DNA of 64,000 nucleotides from Marchantia polymorpha subsp. ruderalis (Eukaryota > Streptophyta > Marchantiopsida > Marchantiales > Marchantiaceae): the NCBI GenBank assembly GCA_037833965.1, contig AP031357.1:11986001-12050000 (forward strand). Reading direction: 5' to 3'. Within the stretch, counting starts at the first letter, position 1. Each line of letters starts with the position of its first letter. Of the stretch, positions 9,606-64,000 are shown piece by piece. Under the pieces are notes generated by a model. That model did no database searches and was not told the DNA's origin. It saw nothing but the letters and a program-made list of their open reading frames with translations. The position numbers and the translations under genes are program-made.

Positions 9606-10136
9606 TCATTTCTCCTTATACTCATAACTTTTCTCCATTCTTATAGCAATTCGAATGGCTTTAGCTTTAGAAGAAGACTTCTCATATTTCACCTTACTTC
9701 GAATCTCGAGTCTCAAACCTCCAACAAAGTTTTTCATGAGCATTGCCCGTATCCCCACGATTGTAGCATCCACTTCGTCTCCACCCTTCCTCAACACCAC
9801 ATGGAATCTTGACTTGAACTTCTCAGTTCTCTCTACCTAGGTCTTCATCTTCTCGTTCTTTCCTTGTTTCAAGAAGATGATCTCACACATTAGCTTTTCA
9901 TAACTTTCATTGGAAAGAAAGGTTTTGATCAGGTACTTCGTCAATGTCTTCCAAGTGTCATCCTCCAAATGCTCCCTCTTGTACTCTTTGTACCACTTGA
10001 GAGCAGAATCTTCCAAAAAATCCGGCAAAAGCATAGCTCACTTGTCCTTCTTCCTCTCATTGTTTCATATGCAAGTCCTCTTGAAGTCTCTAACAAAAGA
10101 TTCTACATCCTCATTCTCCCTTCCATAAAACACCGG
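9606..10136 (-). pseudogene. Partial gag of Ty3 family B
   Basis: The minus strand encodes LLPDFLEDSALKWYKEYKRE near 9975-10034 and VLRKGGDEVDATIVGIRAML near 9740-9797. Both match the gag of the family B element at 61797-63494 almost residue for residue. A frameshift or stop at about 9837 separates the pieces, and the C-terminal half with the zinc knuckle and protease is deleted. It is a non-functional remnant of the retrotransposon capsid gene. Confidence 0.85.
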
Positions 10137-10358
10137 AAGCTTTCCTATTTTCAAATAATTTTTATTTTATTTTATTGGAAATCTATATAGGACTTTCTAA
10201 TACAATACAAATAACACTAACTCTATCCTTGAGTAGTTCATCCAAGGAAACACAAATTGGCTCATTAAATATAGCCATAGTTCTCTACTCCCTTAGACAC
10301 ACAACGAGTCTTACCCTCATCATCATCTTCTCTATCATCCGAATAATGATCTTCATCT

Positions 10359-10670
10359 CTAGTTGGAGGTTGAACCAGCCGAGGTCACTTTCTCCGTTTC
10401 AGCATTTAGCTTGCCGTCAAAACCTTCCACAAGTGATTCTAGAAGCTCCTTCACTCCGCTGCAATCTTGTCCCGCCGGTAGTCTTATCACTCCACAATTG
10501 TCACAAAAGGTCGTGTTTTGAGATTCATGTGGAGATGATGGTCCTGAGTGAAATTTCAACTCTCCCAATTTACTCTTGCTCCTCAATCTTTTATCCTTGT
10601 TCCGTAAGGAAAAATTGATAGCCTTATGTCCCTCCTATTTACAATAAAAGCAAGTCATTTTTTACTTTTG
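10359..10670 (-). pseudogene. Leader ORF with CCHC knuckle, family B (older copy)
   Basis: Upstream of gag on the minus strand lies a reading frame beginning with a zinc-knuckle-like CFYCK.EGHKAINF (the last cysteine replaced by phenylalanine) near 10625-10665. It continues through LRNKDKRLRSK to a CDNCGVIRLPAGQDC segment and ends at 10359. The newer copy at 63717-64000 encodes nearly the same peptide, with the final cysteine kept. An internal stop interrupts the knuckle here. Function unknown. Confidence 0.6.
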
Positions 10671-46730: not shown

Positions 46731-47038
46731 GAAGGAAATGTTTACGACTGTTCAAGTAAACTCATGTCTTTTTTAGAACTCGAAGTGTGGTGAATTACAC
46801 ATGATGATTGAAATTTGTTAGAGTTGTCAGTCAGGTGAAGTAGCTCTGGCTGGAGCAACCTCCTTGAGGCAACCTCGTGTAATATGTTAGATTTAAAAAT
46901 TAAGGTTCACCGCCTAAAATTCTTTGAACCAGAGTCACGCCCAAAAGTTGTCCCCCATCTACAACATTTCTTTTTATCCAAAAGCCGGACTGTACCTGTT
47001 AACCCTCTTTCAAGTGCAGCCTTTTTGAATTCGTGATG

Positions 47039-47044
47039 AATAAA
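47039..47044 (+). terminator. Candidate polyadenylation signal of the BLISTER homologue
   Basis: AATAAA lies about 310 bases after the stop codon at 46730 and is followed by a T-rich stretch. It is the canonical hexamer in a reasonable position, but plant signals are degenerate and other sites are possible. Confidence 0.4.
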
Positions 47045-48068
47045 TATTTAGTTTTTATTGTTATTGGTCACTAACCACCAACCTTCGTCTTGAAGATGAC
47101 ACTGGCTCTGGAGCTTTAGGCTGCGTCAGCTTTAATGTGGATAAAGCTTGAAATATTCTGGAATCTCATCGTGGTGAAATGTTTGATTGTGTACGTGAAA
47201 CGTTCGATTGTGAGACAAAGTCGACCTATAGAAATATTCGTGCTCTGCCTCTGATTAATCTTCAGTGGTTCTTTCTTCAGTTGGTTCAGTCATAAGAATT
47301 CGAGCTGATACTGATGCTGTATGTTTGTGTTCCCTCCAACCATGTCGTGGATTTCATGTAATCAGTGGAAAGTGAAGAATGGAAAGATTTGAGCACCATT
47401 ATCGTGTGACTGGAACTCACATTAAGATGCTGATTTGAGGGAAGGCAGCGGTAGAGAATCAGCAGTCACATAGAGATAAATGCAAAGACCAGCATTCCGT
47501 TTAAGCGTCTATATTGAATTGAAGTGGACGATCCTATCGAAGACTTCTAGAAGGGAGTGTCCAGGTGCAAACAGTCACCACGACTTTTAGAATACATGAA
47601 CTTGCAGAGCTATGGTTTTGGATGGAAAGGGAAAACCTTGCACTCACGTCTGGACATTTGAAATGTACAACGAGCAAGACACTATTCGGTACATCGCATG
47701 GTTCGGACCTAGTCACTTCGAATGAACGACTAACACTTCGCTTCCTAGACTCCACGCATTTGGCGATAGGTGTTGTAGACTCTTTCCGGCGCAAGACAGC
47801 GATGGAACTAACGAATGTTCCCACACCGAAATGGTTTGAAGCGCAGCGAAGGCTCAAGGTATCCACAATCAGAGCAGTGCTTGACCGCGTGCATCCTCCT
47901 CAAGGTTTGCACATTTGAAGGCTAAAGAAAACCGCGAGTTATGGAATTGATAAAATCATACGGGCCCACGTGGATAGCAAAAACCCAAAGTAATGTTATA
48001 ACAAGCCGCACAAGGAAATGTTTTTGCTATACACCCTCTCATACCAAGAAGCTGATGTCATGTGTATG

Positions 48069-48344
48069 CACGTTAGTGCAGTTGCAGATCGAAGTTGGTG
48101 TCGATTTAAGTTCAGACGTTGGATTCGAGTGTGAGTCGGGTGACGTTGGGAGTCGCTAACGTTGAGACGCGGAGCTTAGGCTAGGTTGACTTTACAGGTT
48201 TATATTCACGTTAGTGCAGTTGCAGATCGAAGTTGGTGTCGATTTAAGTTCAGACGTTGGATTCGAGTGTGAGTCGGGTGACGTTGGGAGTCGCTAACGT
48301 TGAGACGCGGAGCTTAGGCTAGGTTGACTTTACAGGTTTATATT
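48069..48344. repeat. Exact tandem duplication of 138 bp
   Basis: The unit starting CACGTTAGTGCAGTTGCAGA at 48069 is followed at 48207 by a second copy. I saw no difference between the two through GGTTTATATT at 48197-48206 and 48335-48344. Such identity means a very recent duplication or an assembly artefact. Confidence 0.93.
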
Positions 48345-48351
48345 CGAGGCG

Positions 48352-48380
48352 AACTCGAAGAACTGACAGTTCTTCGAGTT
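48352..48380. repeat. Perfect 14-bp inverted repeat (hairpin)
   Basis: AACTCGAAGAACTG at 48352-48365 is followed, after a single A, by CAGTTCTTCGAGTT at 48367-48380. It lies eight bases after the 138-bp duplication. The near absence of a loop makes a cruciform or long-stem transcript possible, but no gene context supports a role. Confidence 0.9.
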
Positions 48381-49574
48381 GAGCCTTACGCGTCGGGGTT
48401 TTTCTCCTTCGCTTCGACTTTTAGTCCACCTACGAGTAGTGAGTTTGGCTCGACTCTTTGTGTATTTGTGTTTCGACATTCCTTTTACTCGAAGAACTGC
48501 GTCTTGTGTTGTGTTCTTGTTTCTGGTGCCGAATATGTCAGTGTCGGTGTGGTGTTCGTTGGTTCATTCTCCGGTGGTCATGTCTGTGTTTTATCACTCC
48601 CTCACCGAAGGCTCGGAGGGCTCAACAGAGTGTGATATACTAGTAGGTGTGAGGGTTTGTTTATCTACGCGCGTGGTACGCTTCGGTGTTTTTGTTGTGG
48701 TGGCGCGAGAAAAGTGGAAGAGCGTAATTTGAATAAAGAGCAAAAATTTAGAGGTTGTGCGAGGTGTTTTGCGGTCCGGGTTGCTTTTCTGAGGTTTCGC
48801 ATTTATCATAAGGGATTTGGAACGGTGGAGGTGAAGACCTGCCGTACTTAGGGAGAGGTCGTGTTGAGGTTCTTGGAGCTCGTGGTATCGTTTTGAATTT
48901 GTGATACTAGGTTAATTTTGAGGTGAAATCGGGAGAACAGATTGTTCGAAGATTGTTCGAAGAAAGGAAGAACAGGATACGAGTATGGCATGATGATGCA
49001 GCCACCGGTAGGGGTTGGACCTCCGACTCCACAGTCGAGTGACGGAAAGCAGCGTGAGGATGATGTAGAGAAGTAGGACGGAAGCAGGCCATGGAGCGAG
49101 AAGCATATTTGTGGTCTGTATCGGACATGTAGAGGGAGGAGTTGTGATCATTTCCTTCCTGCTGTGTTTAGCATTCTTTCCCGACCAAAAATTAAATCCG
49201 TACAGCTTTGCTTGCAGCCCACTCTCGGACGTAGAGATACGATTGAAGAGTGGATTCCAACAGCTACATCCTCGAGCATACATCTATCTATTCACAAGTG
49301 TTGTCCAGCTTCTACGATTTAGAAGTGTTTGACACCCCGTAATCTTTCGATATTCCGATGTACTATTGAGGTTCATATCTCAAACCTGCAGCAGGTTACA
49401 ATATCCTCCTGACTAATTGTGTGCGCACGTTGCTGTTAGTTGGCCACGGCCAGACGCAAGAGCCAGAGCTGAAAGTTGTAAGAGCTTTGCAAGTTCTGGT
49501 ACCATTCGCTGTCTCTCAACGGTGGGTAAAATTTTCGAAGACAGGAGCTCGCCATGTCGAGCAGAACTTTGACA

Positions 49575-49872
49575 TCAATGCTCTACAGGTTTCAAAGGAT
49601 GGGCACGTAGGGAACTTAAATCAAGATTCGAGTCCAACTCTTCATCTAGCTCTCCAACAACTTCAATGTTATCTCCACGGATTATATAAAGTCCAAGCAC
49701 CAACTGCTCCACTCTAGCCTTCGTAGAATAAACGCGTTCATGAGACTCGTCGAGTATGAGATTGGTGGCCTGGCCGAAACCCCCTGAGAACACCCACAAT
49801 GTTGCGACCGTCGTTGGTAATTACGAATATGGTTTGATCAACCAGTGACTCGAGTCCGCTAGCGGAGGCCAT
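49575..49872 (-). pseudogene. LSM8: LSm8-like gene without introns, one-base frameshift
   Basis: The minus strand from an ATG at 49872 reads MASASGLESLVDQTIFVITN then DGRNIVGVL, the Sm1 motif of LSm8. After a frame change it reads GFGQATNLILDESHERVYST, LVLGLYIIRGDNIEVVGELD and LSSLRAHPLKPVEH. The full span equals the ~98-residue LSm8 family length plus one extra base. The extra base lies in a run of five C (plus strand 49780-49784), where four would keep the frame. LSm8 is the subunit that defines the nuclear LSm2-8 ring on the 3' end of U6 snRNA. The copy has no intron, so it may be a retrocopy, although no poly-A tail or flanking repeat was seen. A sequencing error in the C run would restore a complete gene. 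Confidence 0.88.
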
Positions 49873-51134
49873 GTCTTTCATATGTTTGTCACCAAGATAC
49901 CGATCTTGTGATCGCGCGGAAGTTAATCATCAGGGGAACTTAATTTTGCTGTGCCTGATGCCATTGTGGCACTGCTGTACTCTTCAGGGGCCAAGTTCTC
50001 CCGTACAACTCCAGCGAAAGTGTAATGTGGGACAACATGTAGTGGCTTGTATGAAGGCCGGAGAATAGAAGTAGTCTATCAGAAGCCCGCCTCGAGGAGG
50101 ATTGAGTGTGATGTTGGAGGTGACTTGCTACATGTCACAGTCAAACTATGTCTAGTAAATAGCGATCACTCCTAAAATAGTAGCTACGGTTTGAATCGAA
50201 GTAGGCATTATCAAATCTGATGCAAATTGGTCTGTGGTATTGAAAGTCAAAGAGAAAAATCTGGTGATTTCATTACGCGTCTGTTTTTAGTAGGTTATTT
50301 TTTTAGGCCTTTGTGGGTAGTAGTGATAGAAGAAATCAATTTGCTACAGTGGGAGAGAAGTACAATTGTCATCGATGGTTTTATCATCCTTTGTATACGG
50401 AAGTTAGTAAGTGTGCACATGTTTGATCACTAATAAGAAGAAAAAAAAATCAAAGAGAAAAGAGAGAAAAAAATAGAAAAAAAATAGAAATTATTTTTCT
50501 GGAGAAACTGAGAATTTGCACTCAGTCTCATTTATTATGATTTTTCAGTTGTGAAAATAATGGTTTTATCATTATTACTTTTGTCTATGTGGAACAATTA
50601 GGGTAGATAGGTTTTTCCTATTTGTTATATTCCTTGCCCCTGGTTGAAGCGTGAAGTGGAGGTATGAGGTGAAGTACGGGACAGCTCGGCGTGGATATCA
50701 TCTTTGCGACAGGATGAACGGAATGGCGTTGCAGGCGCTGGAGACGGAAGGTGGTAGGGGGCGATGGAGTTCGACTCGGGGTCGCGATGCGAGGCGATGT
50801 CCCGTGTGTTGTGTTGTTCTGTGTTGTGTTTCATTTCGGCTGGAGAGTCGTTGCTAGCTGTTTGCTTGTGTTTGAATCCTCTCCAGTCTGGCTTGTTGAT
50901 GCGCGCCCATGTCTGGGTTGACATTGATTTCCGGAGTAGTTTTATTCCAGTGTGCTGTCGATAGTGCGGCTGGATTTGATCACCGGCGCCTATCTTTGTT
51001 TCTCTCATGGTGAAACTGGAGTGATGACTAGTGGACCATGAAAGTCTCCTTGCGGTGATGATAGGTTAGGTTGCCCATACCCATAGTCAGTAGAGCTAGA
51101 GCAGGTTAGTGCAGGGACGAGGGCAGGTGGAGTT
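49873..51134. other. Spacer and unresolved 5' end of the methyltransferase retrotransposon
   Basis: A purine-rich stretch lies at about 50430-50490 (runs of A with G). The 5' LTR of the element to the right should lie in or near this region, but its 3' LTR is outside the window and no tRNA primer-binding site could be recognised, so the boundary is not set. Open frames here show no known motif. Confidence 0.5.
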
Positions 51135-53083
51135 GTGGCAGTGGTGCCGGTTGGTGAGTCAGTCATCACGGAGGAGTTTGGTGGTTCCGTTGAGGACCGT
51201 GAAGGATTTACGCGGAGTGAGTTGAGGTATCGGCTACCTCATCCTAGCGCATCTGTGGTTGCAGAGGCGCGGGGTGTGGCAGATAGTGGATCTTTGGTGG
51301 TGATATCATCTAGGGTCCCACACTCGTGGACTGGGGACATGGACGGTATGTACGGGGCCATGAAGGGCCCACGGCGGTACTCTGGGCAGTGGGCACCATT
51401 GAGTTGGATGATTTCATCCAGGAGTTTGACACGTGGTGCGATATGCAGTTCTTGCGTAACCCCACGTTGTTTACACCCTTCTTTGCATGGAAGGGGTTGT
51501 TTCAGCATCTAGAGGGGCCTCCCATGGATGACTACCATAAGTTTGGGAGAGAGTATGCTGTGGAGATTGACGCATGGAGGCGTCATTGGTCTCCAAACTA
51601 TACGTCGATCACCCAGGATGGTGTTGGTACCAGTGGAGGTGCAACTGATAGCATCACCGATGGTACTAGTGGAGCAGGTACCACCAGCGGTGCTGTGGGC
51701 GTTGCCAGCACGAGTAGGGAAACTACTGGCGTACCTTCGTTCAGCCCCATTCCTGACTTCTTCAAGAGGTTGAGGAAGAACTATCAGGGGGTGAGGACGG
51801 AGAAGTTGAGGAGTCTCCAGGAGTTTGAGCGGAAGATTGGTGAGAGTCTTTGGGAGGCATACACGCGTATGCGGCGGTTGATCTCAGTTACTCACGGTGT
51901 AACTGAGGCACAGGCGGTCCAATATTGGTACAGGATACTGGACAGAGAGCTACGGCGGAGGGTTCGAGATGCTACTCTCTTGAGCGATGCGTCACCGACA
52001 TTGGCCTCTGTGTTTGCTCTTTCTGAGAAGATTGAGCTTAACATAGTGGAGGAGAGAGTGGTGACTTTTTCATTCGCTAGAGACGCAGCCACTACCTCTC
52101 GTGTCCCGCAGAGCACGGCACAGTCTAAACCCTTTGGTGATGGTAGTGGTGGGGGTCGCGGAGTGCAGACACGACACCAAACGGCCGCTAGAGATACAGG
52201 GGCACGTGCACCAGTGCCGTCGTTTGTTGGCCAGCAGCAGGGACCAGCATGTTGGACATGTGGAGGGGATCATCTGCGGAGAGATTGTCCCCAGGAGGCC
52301 GGAGGTTGGAGTTCACAGGCCAGACCCCAGTCAGCACAGGTGGTGTGTGACCATTGTGGTCGAGCAGGTCATACTCGAGATCGATGTTTTGATCTTCATC
52401 CAAAGTTGACATCTGGTGGTAGAGGTCGTGGTGGTGATGCTCCACGGGGCCGAGGTGGCCGCGGTGGTAGAGGTGCTGGTGCAGTTGGACGACCGGTAGC
52501 GAGTGCTGCGTCAGCTACAGAGAGCGCGATGGCGGCCCGGATTGAGCAGTTGGAGCAGAGGCTTGCTGCTATGGCTGCTACTTGGGCGAGCTCGTCCACA
52601 TTTCACGAGGGAGAGGATTTCCCTTATTTAGCGAGTGCAGCACAGGTGGAGGCATCGGTTGCAGTGACTAGAGGTGCAGCTCAAGCTCTAGAGCCACGCG
52701 GTGCGACAGGGGAGTTGGATCCTCAGAGGGGTGAGGGTGGGCGTCAGGCCAGACTTCCCTAGTCGTTTTTGTTGTCAGAGGTGGGCAATACTTCATCCAT
52801 GAGACCTGTACCACCTAGTGAACTTAGTGGGAGGACTGAGACATCTACGTCACGTGTGGTGGACACGGACACACCATCTAGTGCAGTGACGCGGATGGCT
52901 AGCTCAGTGATGAGATCTCCACTATTTTCAGCTATGGAGCTGATGGACTCTGGGATTGACTTGGCTCGGGTTTTTCGTGCAGCAGCCACTTTGTGTGAAT
53001 GTGGGAGTATCACTGCTACAAGTGCCGAGATTGGCGAGACTATTGGTGAGGAGCTTTCCTCTACGACTCCATCGAGCGATTGA
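51135..53083 (+). pseudogene. gag of the methyltransferase retrotransposon
   Basis: The main frame runs 51326-52762 and goes on in the same frame after a TAG at 52760 to 53083. The start is upstream in another phase; DGMYGAMKGPRRYSGQ near 51340-51390 then shifts into GTIELDDFIQEFDTWCDMQF, so one frameshift lies near 51385-51400. The capsid-like part ends near the Ser/Thr/Gly-rich stretch, followed by a second helical part (KLRSLQEFERKIGESLWEAY). Two zinc knuckles follow, CWTCGGDHLRRDCP (C-x2-C-x3-H-x4-C) and VCDHCGRAGHTRDRC (C-x2-C-x4-H-x4-C), then a Gly/Arg-rich nucleic-acid-binding tail. Gag would package element RNA. Confidence 0.85.
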
Positions 53084-53084
53084 G

Positions 53085-55166
53085 TCGAGATGGCAGGCGG
53101 CAGCGGCACGGATGGAGTCCTTGCCAGCCCGACCAGCCATTGATCGGAAGAGGATTGTCCCTGGTGTGTGTATGATGGACAACCGGAGCGGTGTATTTTG
53201 CTTGGTGAGTGCTACAGGGCATGTGTATGTCCCAGCCAGATTGTTGCTGGATTCTGGTGCACAGCCTTTGATGTTGGGCAAGATTGCCTGCATTAGTTTG
53301 GGAGTTCGGAGGTCCGAGTTGGAGCCTTGTCTGTTCCAGATTCAGACATCACTCGGTGGCACCAGCGATAGGTCTTACGGGATGACCAGAGAGCGCATAT
53401 CAGTGCAGTTGAGGCATGGTCATGCTAAGGATAGCTCGCAGTTTGGAGTTCGAGCGGTGGTTACATCAGCAGAGTCATATGATGTGCTTGTTGGTGGAGC
53501 GGTGTTATATCCGATGGGATTTCGGATGGATTATTGGACGGAGACGGCAGCTTATCGCCCTGGTTGGGAGTCCGGTGATGGACGTATGAGTGAGCTACCT
53601 GTGAGGTTCATTTCTCGAGATCGACTTTTTGGATCTTCTCCTGCAGTTTTAGCCTCTATTGCGGGTTTCAGTGGAGTGCTCACATGGCCTGATGACTTGT
53701 TGGAGGGGAACAGGTCAGCCGAGGATACTCCAATCTATGAGGAGGTGGAGGAGATGGTGAGTCTTGCAGCGGCAGTGTCATCATCTTTGGATGTTCCACT
53801 TTTGGGTTCTTGCCACGCATTACAGCATGAGGCTGATAGGTTGGTGAAGAAGTCTTGGAGTGAGGCCTCTTTACCAGCAGAGGCAGAGCGAGTCTTAGGT
53901 GGTCGGCTAGTATGTGGTCTTAGCACCCTATCACCATTAGTTACTACACCTATCGTATGGGAGTATTCCCCAGAGGTTGTTTGTTTGCTAGATCTTTTTG
54001 GAGGAATTAGCATGGGTTTGGCTGCAGTGTTGCAGTCAGGTATTCTTGTACGTAGATACTTGTACGTGGAGAAGTACGAGACTGCACGTCAGGTTTCTTC
54101 ACGACATGTTACACAGTTGATGCAGTGTTTTACTTTGTTGTTGCCGCGATCAGCTGTTCGAGGATACCAGAAGGCGTTGCCTTCAGACATTTCATTGCTG
54201 GGGGCGCCAGACCTCGATCGAATTGGACATATCGATTTGGTGATTGCGGGATGGCCATGTCAGGGGCACACACGCGCTGGGCATGGAGCAGGGTTACATG
54301 ATCCGAGATCTCGGATGTTTTGGGAGATGCTACGAGTGTTACGTCATCTCCAGGAGCAGCAGACACGTTCTCCCGCATACATTCTAGAGAACATAACATT
54401 GTTGGATGACACTCGGGCCCAGTTGATGGCGAGTGTCCATGAGGTCAGGGCATGGATTGGATCAGCAGTGTTGTTGGATGCTGCGAGGGTTGGTTCACGT
54501 GCTCATCGTGCACGTTTGTGGTGGACCAACCTTGTACCACGAGAGATATTGCGTCATGCGTATGATTCTGTGCATCGTGATCCTACCCTCACCGTTGACA
54601 GGATCTTGGATGTCTCTCGATACTCTCAGGTGGTGAGAGTGGCGGATAGATCACCCATGGCATTGGTGAACCACGTAGGTCAGCCTCGGATGGCTTTGCC
54701 TACGTTGGTTAGTTATCTGGCATCACATGCATATTGTGATGGGGGACTTGGAGTACTGTGGGACAGTATCCTACATCAGTTGGTGGAGCCCAACGCTGAT
54801 GAGAGAGAGCGTGCGATGGGGTTTCTTACTGGTGTGACCGCGGCTTCTTCAGTTTCAGAGGCGTCGCGTCGTCAGGTTTTGGGTCAGGCTATGGACCTGA
54901 ACTGCTTGACGTGGATTGTGAGCTTGGGTTTGGCCGAGCAACGCCGTTTGAGCGCAGATTTGGTGGTTGTTACATCACTTATTAGCTCATTGCCTACTGG
55001 GACGGTAGTGGCAATGGCTAGGGGCGACTTGCAAGATTTTTGTCATCCTTGGAGTTCATGGAAAGTGTCGAGAGGACTTGCGAGAGTAGACGCCTATGCA
55101 GTTGGAGATGTTGGTCACGGGGAGGTTGCTACGAAGGAGGGTACGGAGAACCCTCCTTTGGAGTAG
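53085..55166 (+). CDS. Protease plus DNMT3-like cytosine-C5 methyltransferase (pol part)
   Basis: The open frame extends from 52956, overlapping gag, but recognisable pol starts near 53085. Residues are counted from 52956. Protease: LLLDSGAQPLMLG with active-site Asp near residue 99, and YDVLVGGAVLYPMGF as the C-terminal flap region. Methyltransferase: motif I LDLFGGISMG (about 345), motif IV GWPCQGHTRAG with catalytic Cys 435 (codon 54258-54260), motif VI ENI (478), motif VIII AHRARLWW (about 517), and motifs IX-X ERERAMGFLTG and RRQVLGQAMD (about 610-645). The AHRAR stretch after a DAxxV segment, and the late ERxxGF box, resemble DNMT3/DRM-type enzymes, although PCQ rather than PCN stands at the active site. 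All motifs needed for methyl transfer from S-adenosylmethionine to cytosine are present. The frame closes at TAG 55164-55166, right before reverse transcriptase in the same frame. Confidence 0.88.
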   Translation, partial: SRWQAAAARMESLPARPAIDRKRIVPGVCMMDNRSGVFCLVSATGHVYVPARLLLDSGAQPLMLGKIACISLGVRRSELEPCLFQIQTSLGGTSDRSYGMTRERISVQLRHGHAKDSSQFGVRAVVTSAESYDVLVGGAVLYPMGFRMDYWTETAAYRPGWESGDGRMSELPVRFISRDRLFGSSPAVLASIAGFSGVLTWPDDLLEGNRSAEDTPIYEEVEEMVSLAAAVSSSLDVPLLGSCHALQHEADRLVKKSWSEASLPAEAERVLGGRLVCGLSTLSPLVTTPIVWEYSPEVVCLLDLFGGISMGLAAVLQSGILVRRYLYVEKYETARQVSSRHVTQLMQCFTLLLPRSAVRGYQKALPSDISLLGAPDLDRIGHIDLVIAGWPCQGHTRAGHGAGLHDPRSRMFWEMLRVLRHLQEQQTRSPAYILENITLLDDTRAQLMASVHEVRAWIGSAVLLDAARVGSRAHRARLWWTNLVPREILRHAYDSVHRDPTLTVDRILDVSRYSQVVRVADRSPMALVNHVGQPRMALPTLVSYLASHAYCDGGLGVLWDSILHQLVEPNADERERAMGFLTGVTAASSVSEASRRQVLGQAMDLNCLTWIVSLGLAEQRRLSADLVVVTSLISSLPTGTVVAMARGDLQDFCHPWSSWKVSRGLARVDAYAVGDVGHGEVATKEGTENPPLE

Positions 55167-56170
55167 GTGTCATATCAACTAGTGACAGTATCGCCTCCCT
55201 CTTGTGGGTCCATGGAGGAGGAGTGGGAGCCATCGATTGGTTCTCAGATCACCGGAGGAGAGAGACGACGGTTGACACAATTCTTACGTGACTATAGGAG
55301 TTGTTTTGCCTTCAGTATGAAGGAGTTGGGTACTTTGATTGGACCCGGCATACGGATAGAGTTGGCTAATGATACGCCAATCTTCCGTCGTCCCTATCGA
55401 TATAGTGATATGGAAAGGGACTTGATTCAGAGTCGGACGTTGGAGTTATTGGAGGCTGGGTTAGTGGAGTTGTCGCATGGTGAGTATGCTTCAGCCACTG
55501 TTATGCCAGCGAAGAAGGATGTACATGGTAACTACACGGATAGGTGGATGTGTGGAGATTACCGTCCTATCAATCGGCACACGAAGGCCGATAAGTATGC
55601 CATACCTACACCTGAGGAGATCTTCGATGTGGTGGAGCATGCGAGAATTTTTAGTACTTTGGATCTTCGGGCGGGATACCATCAATTGCCGATTTGAGAG
55701 GTGGACAAGGCCAAGACAGCGTTTTGGGGTGTCAACTCCCACGGCAAGGATTGTTTGTATCAGTGGCGATTCTTACCCTTTGGGTTGAAGAATGCACCTG
55801 CCGAGTTCCAGAGAGTAATGGACAGGATTCTAGCTGGGCTAGATTTTGTCAGATGTTACATTGATGATATCTTGGTGTTTAGCGACACGGTGGAGCAACA
55901 CCAGATACATTTGCAGATTGTGCTTGAGCGGTTGAGGGCTCATGGTCTGCGGTTACATCCTGGGAAGTGTAGGTTCTTCCAGAAGAAGGTGGAGTACTTG
56001 GATCATGTGATCTACCCAGGTGGTTTGGGAGTTCAGCAGGCAAAGGTGGAGGCTATTGCGCGCATTCCTCGTCAGCGGATGTGAGTAGAGTTCGTGCGTT
56101 CATGGATTTGACAAACTATTACCGGAGATATGTGAAGGCATTCAGTGCTATAGCGAAGCCTTTGAACTAG
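55167..56170 (+). pseudogene. Reverse transcriptase of the methyltransferase retrotransposon
   Basis: The frame continues from the methyltransferase. Recognisable motifs are PYRYSDMERDLIQSRTLELL, MCGDYRPINRHT, FSTLDLRAGYHQLPI, WRFLPFGLKNAPAEFQRVMD and the polymerase box YIDDILVF (about 55858). They are followed by RLHPGKCRFFQKKVEYLDHV. A TGA at 55695-55697 stands where an arginine codon is likely. A frameshift near 56080 moves the thumb segment (VRAFMDLTNYYRRYVKAFS) to another phase, and a TAG at 56168-56170 follows. The catalytic aspartates are present, but no intact enzyme can be made. Confidence 0.9.
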
Positions 56171-56854
56171 TTGCTGAAGTCGGATCAGGAGTGGCAATGG
56201 GGAGATGAGCAGGAGAGAGCTTTTGTTGAACTCAAGGCCAGGTTGGTGGCCGCTCCCATCTTGAGGAGACCTATCAGAGGTCGACCATACCAGTTGCACA
56301 CTGATTGGAGTATGTTGGGACTTGGAGCGGTGTTGACGCGGTGTGATGATGAGGGCAAGGAGTTTGTGATTGCGTACGCTAGTCATTCGAACAATGCAGC
56401 AGAGTCGCGGTATAGTTCGTACAAGGGAGAGTGTTTGGCAGCGGTGTGGGCTGTGGCACACTTCAGGTGCTACTTGTTTGGTACGCAGTTTACCCTTGTT
56501 ACCGATCATCAACCGCTCAAGTGGTTGATGGAGTCTGACAAGCTCACATGGAAGCTTGCACGGTGGGCTCTCATCTTACAGGAGTACGACTTTCAGGTGG
56601 TGCATAGGCCTGGAGTTGCGAACCTGGATGCCGACGGTTTGAGTCGGAACCCATGCACTAGTCAGGAGGATGACACTGGAGCTAGGTGGCATGGTGAGGA
56701 TGATGAGGAGATGGTGCCCGGTTGGCATGCATCGGCCTTCATGTGTTGGTTACGTGGAGCCTCTAGTAGTGAGGACCGCTTGACATCTTACTCTAGTCAG
56801 AGAGTAGATAATCAGTCTTCGGATACTGAGGTTGAGGATGGTGGTGTGGACTAG
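56171..56854 (+). CDS. RNase H of the methyltransferase retrotransposon
   Basis: The open frame encodes a Ty3-type RNase H. Landmarks are LHTDWSMLGLGAVLTRCDDE (TDWS in place of the usual TDAS), YSSYKGECLAAVWAVAHFR with the catalytic Glu, VTDHQPLKWLM with the next Asp, and HRPGVANLDADGLSRNP with the last Asp. A variable acidic linker follows and ends at TAG 56852-56854. It would degrade the RNA of the RNA-DNA hybrid. It is open but disconnected from reverse transcriptase by the frameshift and stop upstream. Confidence 0.85.
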   Translation: MLKSDQEWQWGDEQERAFVELKARLVAAPILRRPIRGRPYQLHTDWSMLGLGAVLTRCDDEGKEFVIAYASHSNNAAESRYSSYKGECLAAVWAVAHFRCYLFGTQFTLVTDHQPLKWLMESDKLTWKLARWALILQEYDFQVVHRPGVANLDADGLSRNPCTSQEDDTGARWHGEDDEEMVPGWHASAFMCWLRGASSSEDRLTSYSSQRVDNQSSDTEVEDGGVD

Positions 56855-57856
56855 CGTGATGTTCACGATGATGCGTTGGTGTTGGAGTTCCTACGGACCA
56901 GTATGGTGCCAGGCACAGTGGGTGCCAAGGAGCGAGATTGTGTTCTCCAGCGGGCGAAGAGATACCGATTGGAGGGAGCACATGTTCTCCGAGTGTGGAA
57001 GGACGGTAGGGTATGAGTAGTACCGCATCCAACTCAGAGAGAACGCATTGTGAGGCATGCTCATGAGGAGTTGGGACATTTTGGAGTGAAGCGTACGTAT
57101 AGCTTACTCCTTGGTCAGTATTGATGGCGTGGTATGCATACACAGGTACAGCAGTTGGTATCACGTTGCATGGTTTGTGATCGAGTGAGGGCATCGTTCA
57201 ATGCCCCGACACTAGAGTTACATCCCTTACCTATCATGGGATTGGGTTACCGTTGGAGTTTGGACTTTGCTGGACCACTATCTTTGACTACACGACATCA
57301 TCGGTATGTGTTGGTGATGGTGGAGCATTTCTCCAAGTGGATTGAGTTGGTGGTATTACCTGACAAGGCGAGTAAGGGAGTAGCATATGCTTTCCTTGAC
57401 AAGGTGCTTAGTCACTTTGGTGCACCAGCTGAGGTGTTGACCGTTCAGGGGACAGAGTTTCAAGGTGAGTTTCAGGTCTTGTGTGACAAGACGCTGATTG
57501 ATCACCGGACTAGTTCCCGAGATCATCCAGAGGCGGATGGTTTGGCTGAGCGGATGGTACAGACGGTGAAGAGAGCGTTGCGCAAGTATGGCCTACAGAA
57601 GGGGCATCTTGGGGACTGTGATATTCAGCTACCATGGTTGGCCATGGGATATCGATTCAGTCGTCAAGCATCCTTGGCTTCGTTTTCACCATATTTTCTA
57701 TTGTACGGCCGAGATCCAGATTTGCCTGCAGCAATTCGTCGTGAGTCTAGCGAGGTGGTGAACCTTGATGATCCAGATATATGGGTGAGAGTGTGTTCCC
57801 AACTCTTTCGGCGAGTTATGCCTGCAGCGTTTGAGAACCTTGCGATTGCTGAGCAC
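56855..57856 (+). pseudogene. Integrase of the methyltransferase retrotransposon, truncated
   Basis: The same frame as RNase H continues through a TGA at 57014-57016 and a TGA at 57122-57124. The HHCC zinc domain is readable (RHAHEELGHFGVKRTYSLL, then CMVCDRV). The core has the first Asp in WSLDFAGPLS. The second position reads LTVQGTEFQGEF, where a valine replaces the usual Asp before the QGTEF box. The Glu in ADGLAERMVQTVKRAL is kept. The reading continues to AENLAIAEH-like sequence and is cut at 57857 by the LTR of the next element, so any C-terminal domain is missing here. Confidence 0.88.
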
Positions 57857-58697
57857 TGCAACCTCCGGGCTGACTCTCACTCAGGTTTACCTCTGATGGC
57901 TTTGTGGTAGCGCATCATGGTTCTAGAAGACTAGGATTTATACTCTCACTCATGTCCAAAACACCTTCTCTCACAAACTCTCATGTATCACTCCAACTCA
58001 CACACAAACTCACATCACCCTCTTCACATAAACGCAAACACACGTCGATACTCCAAGATACTCAAAAACTTCACTCCTTCATTACTGAAACAAGTACTCA
58101 CACATGACTCTCCAACTTGCTTGAGAGGTGTTACTCTACCTCTCTATTTATACGACTTGAGAAGTTACCATAGTAACATGTGGTAATTTCTCCTAACTTA
58201 CTTTTACCTAGGTAAGTTTGACTAACCTCCTCTACGTGGCAACATGCCATTGGCCTACCTGAACCTTCTAGAAGCTTCCGGAATCCAAGGTTGAGGTGGC
58301 GACATGCCATTGGAAGCTTTTAAACTTCTACAAGCTTCCTAGCCACTAAGTCAACATTAGACTTAGTCTAGCCAATCATCTTTCATACATTTAGTCAAAC
58401 CAATCAAATCCAAGCTTCTAGTCAAATATCTAATCCCTTGGAATCTAGAACTTTTGTATAAGACAAAATAGAAGTGCTCACTCCTTGTAAAGGACAAAAT
58501 AGAAGTGCTCACTCCATTCTTCTAGAACTCCGCTAATTATTCCGCCAACTATAGACATTGTAGCTAAACTTAGTCATGGCTAGATAAACTTAGTTATAAC
58601 TAACTAGTTTAGTCATAACTAGCTAGTCTTAGCTATGCCTTGGCTAATCATCCTCATTCCCTTGACCACTTCTAAGACTTAGTACATATGTGCAACA
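57857..58697 (-). repeat. 3' LTR of the family B element (841 bp)
   Basis: On the plus strand it begins TGCAACCTCCGGGCTGACTC and ends CATATGTGCAACA, giving TG..CA ends. The 5-base flank on the left is AGCAC; the matching right flank is outside the window. Next to it, 58698-58714 on the minus strand reads GTAAATGTAAGACAGGG, the purine-rich primer tract expected before a 3' LTR. The LTR contains a small tandem duplication of GACAAAATAGAAGTGCTCAC (about 58463 and 58492). Confidence 0.88.
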
Positions 58698-58732
58698 CCC
58701 TGTCTTACATTTACCCCCGAACTAAGATTTCA

Positions 58733-60373
58733 CTACGCCCTCGGAGTGAAAGAATCTGATCTTCGATGGAATAACTTCAACTTGTCGTGGTTGACTCGAT
58801 CGAAGTGACGTCCCCCTAACTCCTTGATGTCATAAGTGAAATTTCCCCACACCTTCTCAACTATGAAAGGTCCAAAATACTTAGAAAGAAACTTTTTCCT
58901 AGCTCTCTTGTATCTAATTGCATCAAAGAGCATCACCCAATCACCTTCCTTGAACGGCTTCAAGTTCTGGTTTCCACTTCGTTTGTCGTGATACTTCTTG
59001 TGCAACTGTTGAGCCCGCTCCACTCGTACCATGGCTAGTGCTCGAGCTTCCTCCAACTCCATCAATTGTTGTTGGCGAAACTTGATGGCTTCTGCTCTAT
59101 TTGATTTCTTCAACCTTTGCTGGATTGTTGTGAATGTTGTCAAGTCAAACTGTATGGGAAGTTTTGACTCAACTCCATACACCATCCGAAAAGGTGAGTA
59201 TCCGGTAGATGTCTTCCATATTGTGCGATACTCCCATAAGATAGCATGGAGCCTCTTGTCCCAATTGTGTTTACTCCCGTCCATGTCTGCATCCTTGGCC
59301 AACATCATACACAAAGTGTAGTTGGTCCGCTCCGCCAACCCGTTAGCGTTAGGTTTGTAGGAAGTGGTCACTCGAGCCTTGATGGAAAAGTGCTCCAACA
59401 TGGCTTGAATCATACTTCCCACAAATTCTCCTCCTCTATCTGATACTAACTCCAATGGACAACCAAATCGAGTAATGATTCTCTCATACAAAAATCTACC
59501 AACCTCCTTCTCATTAGTAGATTTAAGTGGTCTTGCCTCTACCCACTTCGTAAGATAATCTGTAGCTATCACAATGAACTTATTCCCTCGAGGAGTAAGA
59601 TTCAAAGGACCTACAAAATCTATTCCCCACTTTTCAAAAGGACCTAACACTGGTACAGAAATCATAGGAGGGGTTTTCATGGACTTTTTAGCAAAAGCTT
59701 GACACACATCACAACTTTTGCAATATTCCACACAATCCTTAAAAATACCCTTCCAATGATAACCAGCATCAAGAATTTTGAAGGCAGTTACCTTCCCCGC
59801 AAAATGTCCTCCACATACTGCACCATCATGAAACTCCTTCATGAGTTGTAATGCCTCTCCTCTCCCAACCGCCCTTCGTAGAAGTCCGTCAGCTCCTTGA
59901 TGAAAAAGTACCTTCTCCATGATCATATAAGGTTGACATCTCTTCACTAATGCATTTTTCTCCCTTTGATGCATTCCTTGAGGAAACTCTACTCTAGAGA
60001 TGAAATCCCAAATTTCCTTGTACTCCTCCGGTACTGTTGTCACCGTGTCCATGACTAGCAAGTCCTCATCCGGAAAGGTGTCATCTACTGACTGATCTCC
60101 TCCATCATCATATGCTCTCGACATCAAATCCGCATTAGCATGCTTCTTTCCAGGTCTATCCTCAATGGTATAATCAAACTCTGCTAGTAGTAGCTTCAAT
60201 CTAGCTATCCTCCCTTCAGCATTAGGCTTGTTGAAAATGTATTTCAAAGCCTTATGATCAGTCACTATAGTGAATCTCCCACCCAACAAATAATGTCGAA
60301 ACTTCTTAAGTGAGAAGATTACAGCTAAGGCCTCTCTCTCTGTCACTGAGTAGTTCTTCTCCGCTTGAACCAT
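58733..60373 (-). CDS. RNase H (end) and integrase of family B
   Basis: The frame starts within RNase H (QAEKNYSVTEREALAVIFSL with the catalytic Glu, then TIVTDHKALKYIF). It passes HANADLMSRAYDD into integrase, with the HHCC domain (HDGAVCGGHF and CKSCDVCQAF) and a core with Asp in WGIDFVGPLN, Asp in VSDRGGEFVG and Glu in NGLAERTNYTL. A C-terminal part follows, with KYHDKRSGNQNLKPFKEGDW and FGPFIVEKVWG. It ends at 58733. The catalytic D, D, E triad is complete. It would insert the element DNA into the host genome. A frameshift near 60412 separates it from the reverse transcriptase frame. Confidence 0.92.
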   Translation of the reverse strand: MVQAEKNYSVTEREALAVIFSLKKFRHYLLGGRFTIVTDHKALKYIFNKPNAEGRIARLKLLLAEFDYTIEDRPGKKHANADLMSRAYDDGGDQSVDDTFPDEDLLVMDTVTTVPEEYKEIWDFISRVEFPQGMHQREKNALVKRCQPYMIMEKVLFHQGADGLLRRAVGRGEALQLMKEFHDGAVCGGHFAGKVTAFKILDAGYHWKGIFKDCVEYCKSCDVCQAFAKKSMKTPPMISVPVLGPFEKWGIDFVGPLNLTPRGNKFIVIATDYLTKWVEARPLKSTNEKEVGRFLYERIITRFGCPLELVSDRGGEFVGSMIQAMLEHFSIKARVTTSYKPNANGLAERTNYTLCMMLAKDADMDGSKHNWDKRLHAILWEYRTIWKTSTGYSPFRMVYGVESKLPIQFDLTTFTTIQQRLKKSNRAEAIKFRQQQLMELEEARALAMVRVERAQQLHKKYHDKRSGNQNLKPFKEGDWVMLFDAIRYKRARKKFLSKYFGPFIVEKVWGNFTYDIKELGGRHFDRVNHDKLKLFHRRSDSFTPRA

Positions 60374-60413
60374 TTGTCTACTAGCATAGGCAATTGGATG
60401 ATCATGCTTTTCA

Positions 60414-61784
60414 TCATTGACTCAAGGTGCATCCTACAGCAATATTTGATGCATCTGTGTAGAGAATGAAAGGTTTACCCCAATCCGGTTTCGCCAAAAT
60501 TGGAGCCGTCACCAACGCCTTCTTGAGAACTTCGAACGCCGTCTTTGCAGCTTCATCCTTGAAAATGAGTTCGTACTCCACTCCCTTCTTCATGTAATTT
60601 GTCAAGGCATGAGCTTTGTTGGAGAAGGACAAGATGAACCGTCGATAGTACCCCACCATACCAAGGAATTGCCTCAACTTGGTTAAAGTCGCCGGAAAAG
60701 GTAACTCCATGATCCGTGTCACCTTCTCTGGGTCCACCGCTATACCATTCTTGGAGATGATATGCCCCAACAATAGGCCTTTCTCACATCCAAAAATGCA
60801 TTTTTCTGGATTGAGTGAAGCCTTAGCTTCCTCCAGCCGTTGAAGTATTTTGATCAAATGATCAAAATGATCCGCTTTCCTCCCGTAAACACAAAAATCA
60901 TCTATGAAATCCCTTACAAACTTTCCAATGAAAGGTTCAAACACTCTATTCATGAACCTTTGAAAAGTGGCAGGAGCATTACATAGACCAAACGGCATCA
61001 CTCTAAAAGCGAAGGTTCCCCATGAAGTGGTAAAAGTTGTTTTGAGTTGGTCTTCTAAGGCAATTTGGATTTGGTTATAGCCACTATAACCATCTCCAAA
61101 ACTATACCACTCATGGCCAGCAACCTCCTCTAGAATCTCATCTATGAAAGGCAGGGGATAGTAGTCTTTCTTTGTGACAGCATTCAACTTTTTGTAATCT
61201 ACGCACACTCGTAGCTTACCATTCTTCTTCTTCACTATCACAATTGGAGACACCCATTCAGAATTTTCTACCTCGTAGATGAAGCCAGCCTCCTTGAGCT
61301 TGTCGATCTCCTCCTTCACCACAAGAGCCGTAGGTGGATTTATTCGGCGTTGCTTTTGCCGAATATGACGAGCTTTCTCCTCCAACTCGATGCGATGAGT
61401 CTCCAACGTCACATGCTTAAGATCCTTGTAACTAAAGGCAAAAACATGAATATATTTGCAAAATATATCCAGAAACTTTGCCTTTTCCTCCTTGGTAACC
61501 TTGGGACCAAACCTGAGAGTGGACAGTCGTCGACACACCTCCTCTTCGCTCATCTCCACTTTGTCAGGATCTTTCTTCACTCCAGGCCTAGGCAACAACT
61601 CCATGGCAGCAATGACTTGTACTTGAACATTATCATCAGAAGAGTACTCTGATGATGTTTCTTGATCAGAAGTTGAGATGTCTGTGTCAACTTCTGAAAA
61701 GCTACCACTCTCTTCACTCTCAGATTTCCAATACTCGTCAGTTGGTCTATCTGAGTCAGTGGTGGATTCCCCTCCTCTCGTCAA
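60414..61784 (-). CDS. Reverse transcriptase and RNase H start of family B
   Basis: The frame carries a Ser/Asp/Glu-rich N-terminal stretch and then the Ty3 reverse transcriptase: RINPPTALVVKEEIDKLKEA, VCVDYKKLNAVTKKDYYPLP, YSGYNQIQIA, FRVMPFGLCNAPATFQRFMN, polymerase box FIDDFCVYG (FIDD instead of YVDD) and LLGHIISKNGIAVDPEKV. It ends with FILYTDASNIAVGCTLSQ, the start of RNase H, then a stop caused by the frameshift near 60412. It is in the same frame as gag, separated by a TGA at 61797-61799, so a Gag-Pol fusion through that codon or an ancestral sense codon there is likely. Confidence 0.92.
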   Translation of the reverse strand: MTRGGESTTDSDRPTDEYWKSESEESGSFSEVDTDISTSDQETSSEYSSDDNVQVQVIAAMELLPRPGVKKDPDKVEMSEEEVCRRLSTLRFGPKVTKEEKAKFLDIFCKYIHVFAFSYKDLKHVTLETHRIELEEKARHIRQKQRRINPPTALVVKEEIDKLKEAGFIYEVENSEWVSPIVIVKKKNGKLRVCVDYKKLNAVTKKDYYPLPFIDEILEEVAGHEWYSFGDGYSGYNQIQIALEDQLKTTFTTSWGTFAFRVMPFGLCNAPATFQRFMNRVFEPFIGKFVRDFIDDFCVYGRKADHFDHLIKILQRLEEAKASLNPEKCIFGCEKGLLLGHIISKNGIAVDPEKVTRIMELPFPATLTKLRQFLGMVGYYRRFILSFSNKAHALTNYMKKGVEYELIFKDEAAKTAFEVLKKALVTAPILAKPDWGKPFILYTDASNIAVGCTLSQ

Positions 61785-61796
61785 AGGAACCTTAAC

Positions 61797-63494
61797 TCAA
61801 TGGTTCTTTGGGCCTATCCTTAAATAGCTCTTGTGCCATCGGTCCGTAGTCCTTACCGCCCTCAACCAAGGACGTCCCAACAGCAAGTCGTAGCTAGCTT
61901 CCTTGAGAATTTGGAAGGAAAGCAAAGTTTGCACTCCCCTCACACTAACCACAACTTTGTCTACCACCCCCAGTGGTCTTACCTTCTGTTTGTTGGCCAT
62001 ACCAACAATTATGCTAGAAGGTCTAGAAGGTTGCATACCCAACTTCTGCATCAACCTCTCAGACATGGCATTCACAGCCGATCCACCATCAACCAACACA
62101 TCTGATACATCATGTCCATTGATCCTCACTTCGATCTTTGAAGCATGTGTACATACCTCTGAAGCAGCCGCATCCACCACCCCAACTCCCACATTGGTCA
62201 TGTGAGCCTTCCCCTTAGATTTCCGCTTCTTGGTCCTTGTGGAGCTAAGACCTCCTCTTAACTCCTTCCGAATAGCTGGATTCAAGGCAATCAGCTGACC
62301 AACTGTTATATTGGCCTTCTGATTTCCTACATCCTCCACCACGTCATACTTAGCTTGAGAAGATGAAATGGAAAAGTCATCCATGCCCAACTTCTTCCTT
62401 GGTACTCTTGGTTGACTCACTCCACTTGACCGTGTACTTCGACTTGGCGTGTCCTCCATGAAAATTGACTCGTCCGCAAATCGGGCACGCTTCTTCTCAT
62501 GAGCAAGGATATCCACTTTCGATTTTGAGCTCTCCCCTTTCTCAAAAGTGCATTGATGAGGGAATACATCAATGGATGCTACTCCCTTATCCTTGGCTTG
62601 TTGCATGGCCGGTGCATTGTTGTTGTGCCGAACTCCATCATGTTGTCGAGGGTTAGGACAATTCCTCTGAAAATGAGGACCTCCACAAGAAAAGCAAGAA
62701 ACCGCAAAGTTTCCTGAAGGTGGATTCCCTCTTGGAGGATAATTTCCATACTCCCTAGAACCTCCTCCTACGTTCTGATTCCTCTTCTCCCACAACTGTA
62801 CTACATTGATCTTGAGATCTGCTAGAGTCTCCGTGATAGATTTCAACTCATTTTGAAAATCCACACTAGGATTCGCTATCGTGGATGAAGTAGAAGGGTT
62901 TGAAACAATGGACCTTCCTACAACCGGTGGAGCTACTTCTCTAGCCACCAAGCTAGAATCATCATCTTCTAAGCTCTCCTCCATTCTAATAGCAATTCGA
63001 ATGGCTTCAGCCTTAGAAGAGGGCTTCTCGTATCTCACCTTACTTCGAATCTTAGGTCTCAAGCCTCCAACGAAGTTCTTCATGAGCATCGCCCTTATCC
63101 CCACCATTGTAGCATCCACTTCGTCTCCGCCCTTCCTCAACACCACGTGGAATCTAGATTCCAACTTCTCGGTTCTCTCCACATAGGTCCTCACCTTCTC
63201 GTTCTCTCCTTGTTTCAAGAAGGTGACCTCACACATCAGCTTTTCATAACTTTCACTGGGAAGAAAGTTTTCGATCAGGTTCTCCGTTAATGTCTCCCAC
63301 GTGTCGTCCTCTGAATGCTCCCTCTTGTACTCCTTGTACCACTTGAGAGCAGAATCTTCCAAGAAATCCGGCAAAAGCATAGCCCACTCGTCCTTCTTCC
63401 TCTCATTGTTTCCTATGCAAGCCCTCTTGAAGTCCCTAACAAAAGCTTCTACATCCTCATTCTCCCTCCCATAAAATACCGGAAGCTTCCCCAT
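61797..63494 (-). CDS. gag-protease of family B
   Basis: The 565-residue frame starts MGKLPVFYGRENEDVEAFVR, the typical Ty3 gag start, with WAMLLPDFLEDSALKWYKEY in the capsid. The zinc knuckle is CFSCGGPHFQRNCPNP (about residue 275). The C-terminal part contains the aspartic protease: VRINGHDVSDVLVDGGSAVN with active-site Asp as DGGS rather than DSGA, and YDLLLGRPWLRAV. It ends at TGA 61797-61799. It would form the particle and mature the polyprotein. Confidence 0.92.
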   Translation of the reverse strand: MGKLPVFYGRENEDVEAFVRDFKRACIGNNERKKDEWAMLLPDFLEDSALKWYKEYKREHSEDDTWETLTENLIENFLPSESYEKLMCEVTFLKQGENEKVRTYVERTEKLESRFHVVLRKGGDEVDATMVGIRAMLMKNFVGGLRPKIRSKVRYEKPSSKAEAIRIAIRMEESLEDDDSSLVAREVAPPVVGRSIVSNPSTSSTIANPSVDFQNELKSITETLADLKINVVQLWEKRNQNVGGGSREYGNYPPRGNPPSGNFAVSCFSCGGPHFQRNCPNPRQHDGVRHNNNAPAMQQAKDKGVASIDVFPHQCTFEKGESSKSKVDILAHEKKRARFADESIFMEDTPSRSTRSSGVSQPRVPRKKLGMDDFSISSSQAKYDVVEDVGNQKANITVGQLIALNPAIRKELRGGLSSTRTKKRKSKGKAHMTNVGVGVVDAAASEVCTHASKIEVRINGHDVSDVLVDGGSAVNAMSERLMQKLGMQPSRPSSIIVGMANKQKVRPLGVVDKVVVSVRGVQTLLSFQILKEASYDLLLGRPWLRAVRTTDRWHKSYLRIGPKNH

Positions 63495-63716
63495 TTCCCA
63501 CTAATTTTTTTTTTTTTTTCTTTTCTATTGGAAATTTATATGGGGCTTCCTAATACAATATAAACAACACTAACTCCATCCTTGAGTAATTCATCAAAGG
63601 AAACACAAAAGGAATTGGTTGTTCCAAGATAGCCAAAGCTCTCTCCTCTCCTAGGCATACGATGAGTCTTACCCTCATCATCATCTTCTCCATCATTCGA
63701 ATGATGATCTCCATCT

Positions 63717-64000
63717 TCAGTTGGAGCTTGAACCCGCTGAGGTCACTTTCTCTGTTTCAGCACTTAGCTTGCCGTCAAACCCTTCCACAAGTGATTCCAG
63801 AAGTGCCTTCACTCCGCTGCATTCGTGTCCCGCTGGTAGCCCAATCACTCCGCAATTGTCACAGAAGGTCGCGCTTTGGGATTCATGTGGCGATGATGGT
63901 CCCAAGTGAAGTTTCAAATCTCCCAAGTTCCTCTTGCTCCTCAATCTTCTATCTTTGTTCCGCAGGGAACAATTGACAACCTTATGGCCCTCCTCTCCAC
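63717..64000 (-). CDS. Leader ORF with zinc-knuckle, upstream of gag, family B
   Basis: The frame enters from the right edge, reading EEGHKVVNCSLRNKDRRLRS, the second half of a CCHC knuckle whose first cysteines are outside the window. It continues through a CDNCGVIGLPAGHEC segment (C-x2-C..C) and a LLESLVEGFDGKL helix to a stop at 63717. It lies about 220 bases upstream of the gag ATG and in the same frame. The older copy at 10359-10670 keeps it, so it is a property of the family. Its role is unknown; it could be an extra nucleic-acid-binding gag part or a captured gene. Confidence 0.65.
   Translation of the reverse strand, partial: GEEGHKVVNCSLRNKDRRLRSKRNLGDLKLHLGPSSPHESQSATFCDNCGVIGLPAGHECSGVKALLESLVEGFDGKLSAETEKVTSAGSSSN

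Follow-up and report, generated by a model that had tools for sequence, protein, structure and literature searches.

A predicted DNMT3-type cytosine methyltransferase carried by a split-repeat Ty3-like retrotransposon family of Marchantia polymorpha

Captured methyltransferases in described retroelements

Cytosine DNA methyltransferases (DNMTs) captured by retrotransposons were reported by de Mendoza et al. in 2018 (PMC5890265), the study that a preliminary description of the present locus had cited. According to the available part of that report, the charophyte alga Klebsormidium nitens harbors KnitGypsy-Dnmt3, a Gypsy-type element whose polyprotein ORF, described as a Pol ORF, includes an intronless, unpermuted Dnmt3 under purifying selection; a figure legend gives this element Gypsy domains with repeats as in a DIRS retrotransposon. 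A Gypsy element combining a DNMT3 with DIRS-like repeats has thus already been described in one charophyte alga. The same text describes captured DNMTs in two Symbiodinium elements, SymbioDIRS-Dnmt3 (in two coexisting domain orders) and SymbioLINE-Dnmt, which use a DIRS tyrosine recombinase or LINE machinery, and treats the methyltransferase of DIRS elements as an unrelated adenine type. As far as the sources available in part go, split direct repeats (A1, B1, A2, and B2) occur in DIRS/PAT and Ngaro elements, which use a tyrosine recombinase (PMC4157794), and chromoviruses (i.e., chromodomain Ty3 elements) carry a histone-reader-type domain after the integrase (PMC3350952, PMC2864245). DAM- and DCM-encoding elements have been named in green algae and charophytes (PMC6338049), and the accessible text of PMC12344493 only restates the 2018 finding for streptophytes.

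We analyzed a 64,000-nucleotide stretch of the Marchantia polymorpha subsp. ruderalis genome (C8:11986001-12050000, hereafter the window) holding one copy of a comparable family. Like KnitGypsy-Dnmt3, the family has an unpermuted DNMT3-type domain in a polyprotein ORF of a Gypsy-type element, and its split repeats fit the DIRS-like repeats of that legend. Compared by description, the two differ in position: the algal DNMT is placed in the Pol ORF, whereas the Marchantia DNMT lies in the gag-protease ORF before a conserved UAG codon. A captured DNMT is shared with the Symbiodinium elements, the existence of two domain orders among relatives recalls SymbioDIRS-Dnmt3, and the order of the split repeats is that of DIRS/PAT and Ngaro. 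In contrast to the tyrosine recombinase or LINE machinery of those elements, however, the Marchantia family encodes an rve integrase, and its copies have TGTC...GACA ends with 4-bp target duplications. A histone-reader-type domain follows the integrase as in chromoviruses, but it is a PHD finger rather than a chromodomain and is accompanied by the DNMT. The matches listed in our three protein searches (120 of 152 in one of them) included no K. nitens protein. The literature searched, which lay mostly outside subscription journals, yielded no account of a DNMT3-Ty3 element in a bryophyte, and the available portions of PMC6453930, PMC3286476, PMC11244446, and PMC12440569 held nothing that alters this.

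A decayed copy and its methyltransferase domain

The preliminary description had placed a DNMT3-like enzyme of a land-plant Ty3 element at 53085-55166. Pfam, profile, and fold comparisons agree with that description, as does the order of reverse transcriptase (RT), RNase H, and rve integrase, which is the Ty3/Gypsy order. The domain lies in the interval proposed, which makes up only about a fifth of an element extending from 48056 to beyond the window. The parts of this copy are as follows.

48052..48055, no strand: left target-site duplication CTGA; its right partner lies past the window's end, at about 66826, just after the element
48056 to about 66825, plus strand: whole element, its 3' end beyond the window, interrupted by a nested Ty3 element
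48056..48486, plus strand: terminal repeat A1 of the split repeat (A1/A2 identity, 93.7% over 287 bases)
51326..53083, plus strand: gag part of ORF1 with a zinc-knuckle-like motif, in ORFs 51326-52762 and 52769-53083
53085..53885, plus strand: aspartic protease (LLLDSGAQ) and linker, by sequence motif
53943..55163, plus strand: predicted C5-methyltransferase of DNMT3 type, with an open frame and its catalytic motifs
55164..55178, plus strand: ORF1/ORF2 boundary; the stop here lies three codons before the UAG site of other copies
55167..56081, plus strand: RT, interrupted by a stop at 55695-55697 (RVT_1, 3.1e-24 on 55701-56081)
56171..56851, plus strand: RNase H (PF17917, 6.4e-34)
57017..57856, plus strand: first part of the integrase (rve, 1.5e-11), cut at 57856 by another element
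57857..64000, minus strand: nested Ty3 element within the integrase, continuing to about 65692 outside the window (target duplication GCAC)
L111 1693-2137, outside the window: integrase end and PHD finger, resuming past the nested element
L111 2302-2825, outside the window: A2 flanked by B1 and B2

This copy is an old, decayed member of a high-copy family with near-identical recent copies. Its gag is broken by a stop and lies in a different frame from the protease, and the zf-CCHC Pfam match was weak, under the cut-off. A search of the window frame with Pfam profiles for retroviral-type proteases, which had been suggested as a check, returned no match at E values up to 1; such matches were seen only in relatives P0038 and P0110. 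The protease, the DNMT, and the open frame of RT (from 55167) share one frame, as had been claimed, but a stop codon (55164-55166) separates DNMT from RT. Stops and a frame change break the region from RT to RNase H, with the family RT model matching both pieces of RT, and the DNMT frame remains open. The PHD finger was recognized by the family model (4.7e-23) and by Pfam (2.7e-10). Set against the majority sequence of 12 Marchantia records, the protease-DNMT part differs in 30 of 591 columns; 18 of the 26 unambiguous changes are C>T or G>A and none runs in the opposite direction, an excess that would fit long methylation or plain drift toward AT. Within A1, positions 48065-48340 form a 138-bp tandem duplication with copies 99% identical. 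Elsewhere in the window, 63400-64000 is 85% identical to 10054-10636, which places a relative of the nested element near the window's start, and an open frame of 1,219 residues at 27876-31535 appears by eye to be LRR receptor-like, with a leucine-rich-repeat pattern.

The open frame at 52956-55166 (plus strand) gave a significant match to Pfam PF00145 DNA_methylase (E value of 3.2e-8; 33.8 bits against a cut-off of 22), as the preliminary description had anticipated. Its best solved structure by sequence was human DNMT3A (2e-8), and a profile built from 24 relatives matched DNMT3A at 2e-21, DRM at 7.7e-9 (over part of the domain), and HhaI at 1.2e-6. An AlphaFold model of 53943-55088 had a mean pLDDT of 87.9 (68 sequences). 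All 50 Foldseek matches listed for this model were DNMT3-family entries, DNA-bound DNMT3 structures among them, with TM-scores by target of about 0.8 for catalytic-domain chains. At the level of sequence and modeled structure, the domain is confirmed as a DNMT3-type C5-methyltransferase that is closer to DNMT3 than to other C5-methyltransferases.

Every motif listed earlier was found (LDLFGG, GWPCQ, EN, AHRAR, ERERAMGF, and LGQAMD), in the unpermuted order I-IV-VI-VIII-X. The rearranged order (VI-X before I-IV) was seen only in host sequences L114 and L115. The proposed likeness to DNMT3/DRM enzymes therefore stands for DNMT3, on sequence and fold; an affinity with DRM is rejected on the unpermuted order together with the weaker, partial DRM profile match. 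Relatives were called type A where the DNMT precedes RT or RNase H and type B where it comes after either of these. The ENI of the window copy is unusual, being the sole I where 22 of 23 type A rows have V, i.e., the usual ENV. All 145 rows counted (23 of type A, 122 of type B) have the catalytic cysteine and the glutamate of EN, and motif VIII is nearly invariant. Motif IV is GWECQ-like in 84 of the 122 type B rows (e.g., P0143), with E replacing P before the catalytic cysteine.

Copies, reading frames, and ends of the family

We searched the genome (241,466,482 bases in 9 contigs) with the DNMT protein. At least 98 places matched at 82 to 100% identity (726 first-look candidates), forming groups near 92% and 85% identity. 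A genome search with PF00145 scored 123 matches; motif order marks C6:12459429 as a host DNMT3 and C2:342518 and C3:19066770 as DRM genes. Long stretches were read from ten copies, and the ends from nine more.

In all ten copies read at length, ORF1 encodes gag, protease, and DNMT in one open frame of 1,358 to 1,365 codons, spanning from about 2.8 kb upstream of the DNMT start to 1,275 or 1,287 bases past it. The frame closes with UAG in these ten and in five further copies (L068-L072), i.e., in 15 of 15 with the window copy excluded; two of L068-L072 have an additional stop upstream. The hexamer after the UAG is CAACAA in 2 of the 15 copies and CAACCA in 13, the latter matching UAG-CARYYA, the readthrough context of tobamoviruses. 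ORF2, in phase with ORF1, has 1,042 to 1,045 codons in 8 of 10 copies; it has 906 codons in C6:8.94 and is interrupted in C9:10.91. Being collinear with the window copy and with copy ends, it is read as RT, RNase H, integrase, and the PHD finger. The DNMT, which had been assigned to the pol region, thus belongs in other copies to the gag-protease ORF upstream of the conserved UAG. The window copy has no stop at that site and ends at its own codon; because the UAG of other copies lies three codons downstream, the DNMT-RT boundary is real and the window's own stop is a product of decay. A reading of the DNMT-RT stop as decay alone was dropped, since the UAG of other copies marks a true boundary.

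The ORF closes at the equivalent position in Calypogeia P0003 and P0026 and Sphagnum P0071 and P0099, too. These ORFs, and those of P0005, P0006, P0025, and P0039, stop 70 residues beyond the DNMT model, for which reason the ORF1/ORF2 boundary seems old. In P0056, P0125, P0141, and Closterium P0150, DNMT continues into RT without a stop; given these proteins and the type B position of DNMT after RNase H, the gag-side placement, as read from sequence, is not general.

Selection was assessed from dN/dS between the two subfamilies in segments from gag to integrase (the integrase end and PHD finger left out), with 20 pairs per segment from nine of the ten copies read at length; C9:10.91 was left out because of inserted DNA. 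Median dN/dS was 0.21 for gag, 0.14 for protease, 0.19 for DNMT, 0.05 for RT, 0.04 for RNase H, and 0.07 for integrase. The dS of DNMT was 0.259, compared with about 0.6 for gag and protease, and gene exchange between the subfamilies may account for the low value. Among 59 complete type B polyproteins, which were found via their DNMT, median identity was 0.450 for DNMT versus 0.454 for RT. Judged from these substitution rates, DNMT is maintained in the Marchantia genome by purifying selection, less strictly than RT.

The window copy alone, broken and interrupted as it is, could suggest that a host DNMT gene or retrocopy landed by chance in one element, with no carrier family. We give this reading a negligible probability. 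Chance insertion or artefact is rejected by the number of genomic places and by purifying selection; it is further contradicted by the open gag-protease-DNMT frame in each of the ten copies read at length, by the same arrangement in other bryophytes and in Closterium, and by a tree position apart from host DNMT3.

Complete copies were found, but their ends are not the two ordinary long terminal repeats that had been expected. The layout is A1-internal-B1-A2-B2, a DIRS/Ngaro-like arrangement of split repeats, in which A is about 250 to 300 bp and begins TGTCATG and B is 112 or 119 bp. The ends of the window copy became clear from other copies; ordinary repeats of at least 60 bases were absent from window positions 44000-64000, and ordinary long terminal repeats are excluded by the presence of the split ones. 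We examined 20 copies, 8 of which were unscorable (end missing from the stretch or interrupted); the other 12 all had TGTC...GACA ends and an exact 4-bp target duplication. In 10 of the 12, A1 and A2 were 98.8 to 100% identical. The value for C6:8.42 was 93.7%, from gaps without mismatches, and that of the window copy was the same with 15 mismatches. These identities indicate that most scored insertions are young and that the window copy is older. The scanned proteins gave no Phage_integrase match, i.e., no tyrosine recombinase, and the rve integrase was present. None of ten tRNA primer sequences clearly matched 47000-51400, the nearest having 2 mismatches. The pairing of split repeats with a DDE integrase raises the question of how the cDNA is completed.

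Relatives, origin, and possible role of the enzyme

Three protein searches yielded 271 distinct proteins, 270 of them with a scored DNMT; because the searches were seeded with DNMT, the counts cover DNMT-bearing relatives and give no frequency of DNMT-less ones. Marchantia polymorpha is the source of close named proteins (P0114, 91.9% over 658 residues). Type A comprised 14 proteins, with 51 more fitting it; by source labels, the hosts of both sets are Marchantia, Calypogeia, Riccia, Sphagnum, and Closterium. Type B comprised 101, of which 59 had the complete order RT-RNase H-DNMT-integrase-PHD, with 26 more fitting; its hosts are Haematococcus lacustris and, by reading of the label, Chromochloris zofingiensis, and the order also occurs in metagenome proteins. 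The remaining 78 were assigned to neither type. P0236 has a G-patch domain between its DNMT and integrase, and some other type B proteins are listed with one. One family member, P0040, is filed under a bacterial metagenome-assembled genome (Candidatus Obscuribacterales) and is probably misbinned algal or plant DNA.

One DNMT tree included 174 of the 271 element proteins (those with a single match over >80% of the model), the window domain, and human DNMT3A. Another tree took all 58 usable viral sequences and 40 of the 122 type B sequences. Two reduced trees combined 37 of the 271 proteins and the window domain with 9 of the 58 viral sequences and human DNMT3A, the second adding a single DNMT3 and a single DRM of the host. 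The window protein had no match among viral contigs; searches by alignment yielded other C5-methyltransferases, which served as tree outgroups. The C5-methyltransferases of viral contigs L053-L060 and L062 (IMG/VR) grouped with human DNMT3A, apart from other viral methyltransferases (support, 0.723), and four of these contigs were recovered again in the reduced trees.

Type B formed one clade in both reduced trees (UFBoot of 99 and 98), a clade including P0101 of undecided type, and in an RT tree with one outgroup (support, 0.93). The relation between types A and B was weak (UFBoot of 39 at one node of a reduced tree; UFBoot of 69 for type A in the tree with host genes). A phylogeny of the kind proposed earlier, with few references, tentatively set the element DNMTs outside plant DNMT3, as sister (UFBoot of 80) to a group joining some viral-contig enzymes with human DNMT3A and the DNMT3 and DRM of the host. 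Fold and catalytic motifs are common to the element enzymes, the host DNMT3/DRM proteins (L113-L115), and mammalian DNMT3; the element enzymes differ in forming this separate clade and in carrying extra residues between motifs I and IV that neither host nor human sequences have. The integrase-PHD part of type A (P0042) can be aligned with that of type B, so that within one element lineage the DNMT either moved or was acquired twice. The sequences lead us to favor one old capture, a reading that falls short of proof.

For the role of the enzyme, we propose an explanation that, taken as a whole, has about an even chance of being correct. The DNMT would be made in Gag-like rather than Pol-like amounts, with occasional readthrough of the UAG yielding ORF2 and a high ratio of Gag-protease-DNMT to RT-integrase-PHD. 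The protease would liberate the DNMT inside the particle, where it would methylate the double-stranded cDNA of the element, either ahead of integration or during it. A new copy would thus be premarked for host maintenance methylation, limiting damage and avoiding recognition as foreign, and the PHD finger of the integrase would guide insertion toward chromatin with one particular type of histone H3 tail. In that case the element would hold a writer and a reader of the host silencing code. Solved relatives of the PHD finger include CHD4, MLL3, DPF2/3, PHF21A, KDM5A/B, UHRF1, BAZ2, and AIRE, several of which read unmodified H3K4. In the available text of PMC5890265, cDNA methylation, evasion of recognition, and host benefit are discussed, and SymbioDIRS DNMT domains methylated CG in yeast. 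The KnitGypsy domain produced no methylation in yeast, a result its authors deem inconclusive (PMC5890265), and this null counts against self-methylation. So do the weaker constraint on DNMT than on RT (0.19 versus 0.05) and the low dS of DNMT, while relatives without the stop and the type B order count against a gag-side explanation.

The same yeast result would suit a domain that sets no heritable DNA methylation but instead acts on RNA, guards the cDNA against damage, or serves the particle structurally or by binding. The E before the catalytic cysteine of most type B enzymes would suit it as well; the invariant cysteine and glutamate and the near-invariant motif VIII are nevertheless what one expects of an enzyme, and the fold match to DNA-bound DNMT3 structures also argues against such a role, which we consider quite unlikely. 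Somewhat unlikely, too, is that the DNMT targets host chromatin or other elements instead of the element's own cDNA, e.g., curbing copy number or competitors and being kept because it spares the host. DNMT3-type enzymes methylate chromatin, the PHD finger could link element proteins to it, and host benefit is among the ideas of de Mendoza et al. (PMC5890265, available part). However, a DNMT in the gag-protease ORF favors packaging into particles, and purifying selection at the level of the element demands a gain for the element itself.

Several findings are new within the literature searched. The family occurs in a bryophyte in many copies, including recent, nearly identical ones; its DNMT lies on the gag side, ahead of a conserved UAG; its integrase bears a PHD finger; and its target duplications link split repeats with a DDE integrase. 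The branch in chlorophytes and metagenomes, in which the domains follow a different order, is also new in this sense, although it may be partly known, since the accessible text of PMC6338049 names such elements.

A wider reading, which we offer tentatively and think doubtful, is that a Ty3-like element captured a DNMT3-type enzyme once in green algal and land-plant ancestry, or that the enzyme spread between these groups, and that it has since been retained as the writer in a kit of writer and reader. In bryophytes, the writer would have come to lie upstream of a readthrough stop, so that it would be produced as a structural protein is and enter every particle, and insertions would be born methylated. 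If this were true, elements with split repeats and a DDE integrase would be a retroelement class between Ty3 and DIRS. Transposons are usually the targets of cytosine methylation, and here a Marchantia retrotransposon family appears to encode a writer of the very mark that normally hits transposons. Marchantia is a transformable model plant with methylomes, and what a retrotransposon gains from a methyltransferase may therefore be tested directly in this host.
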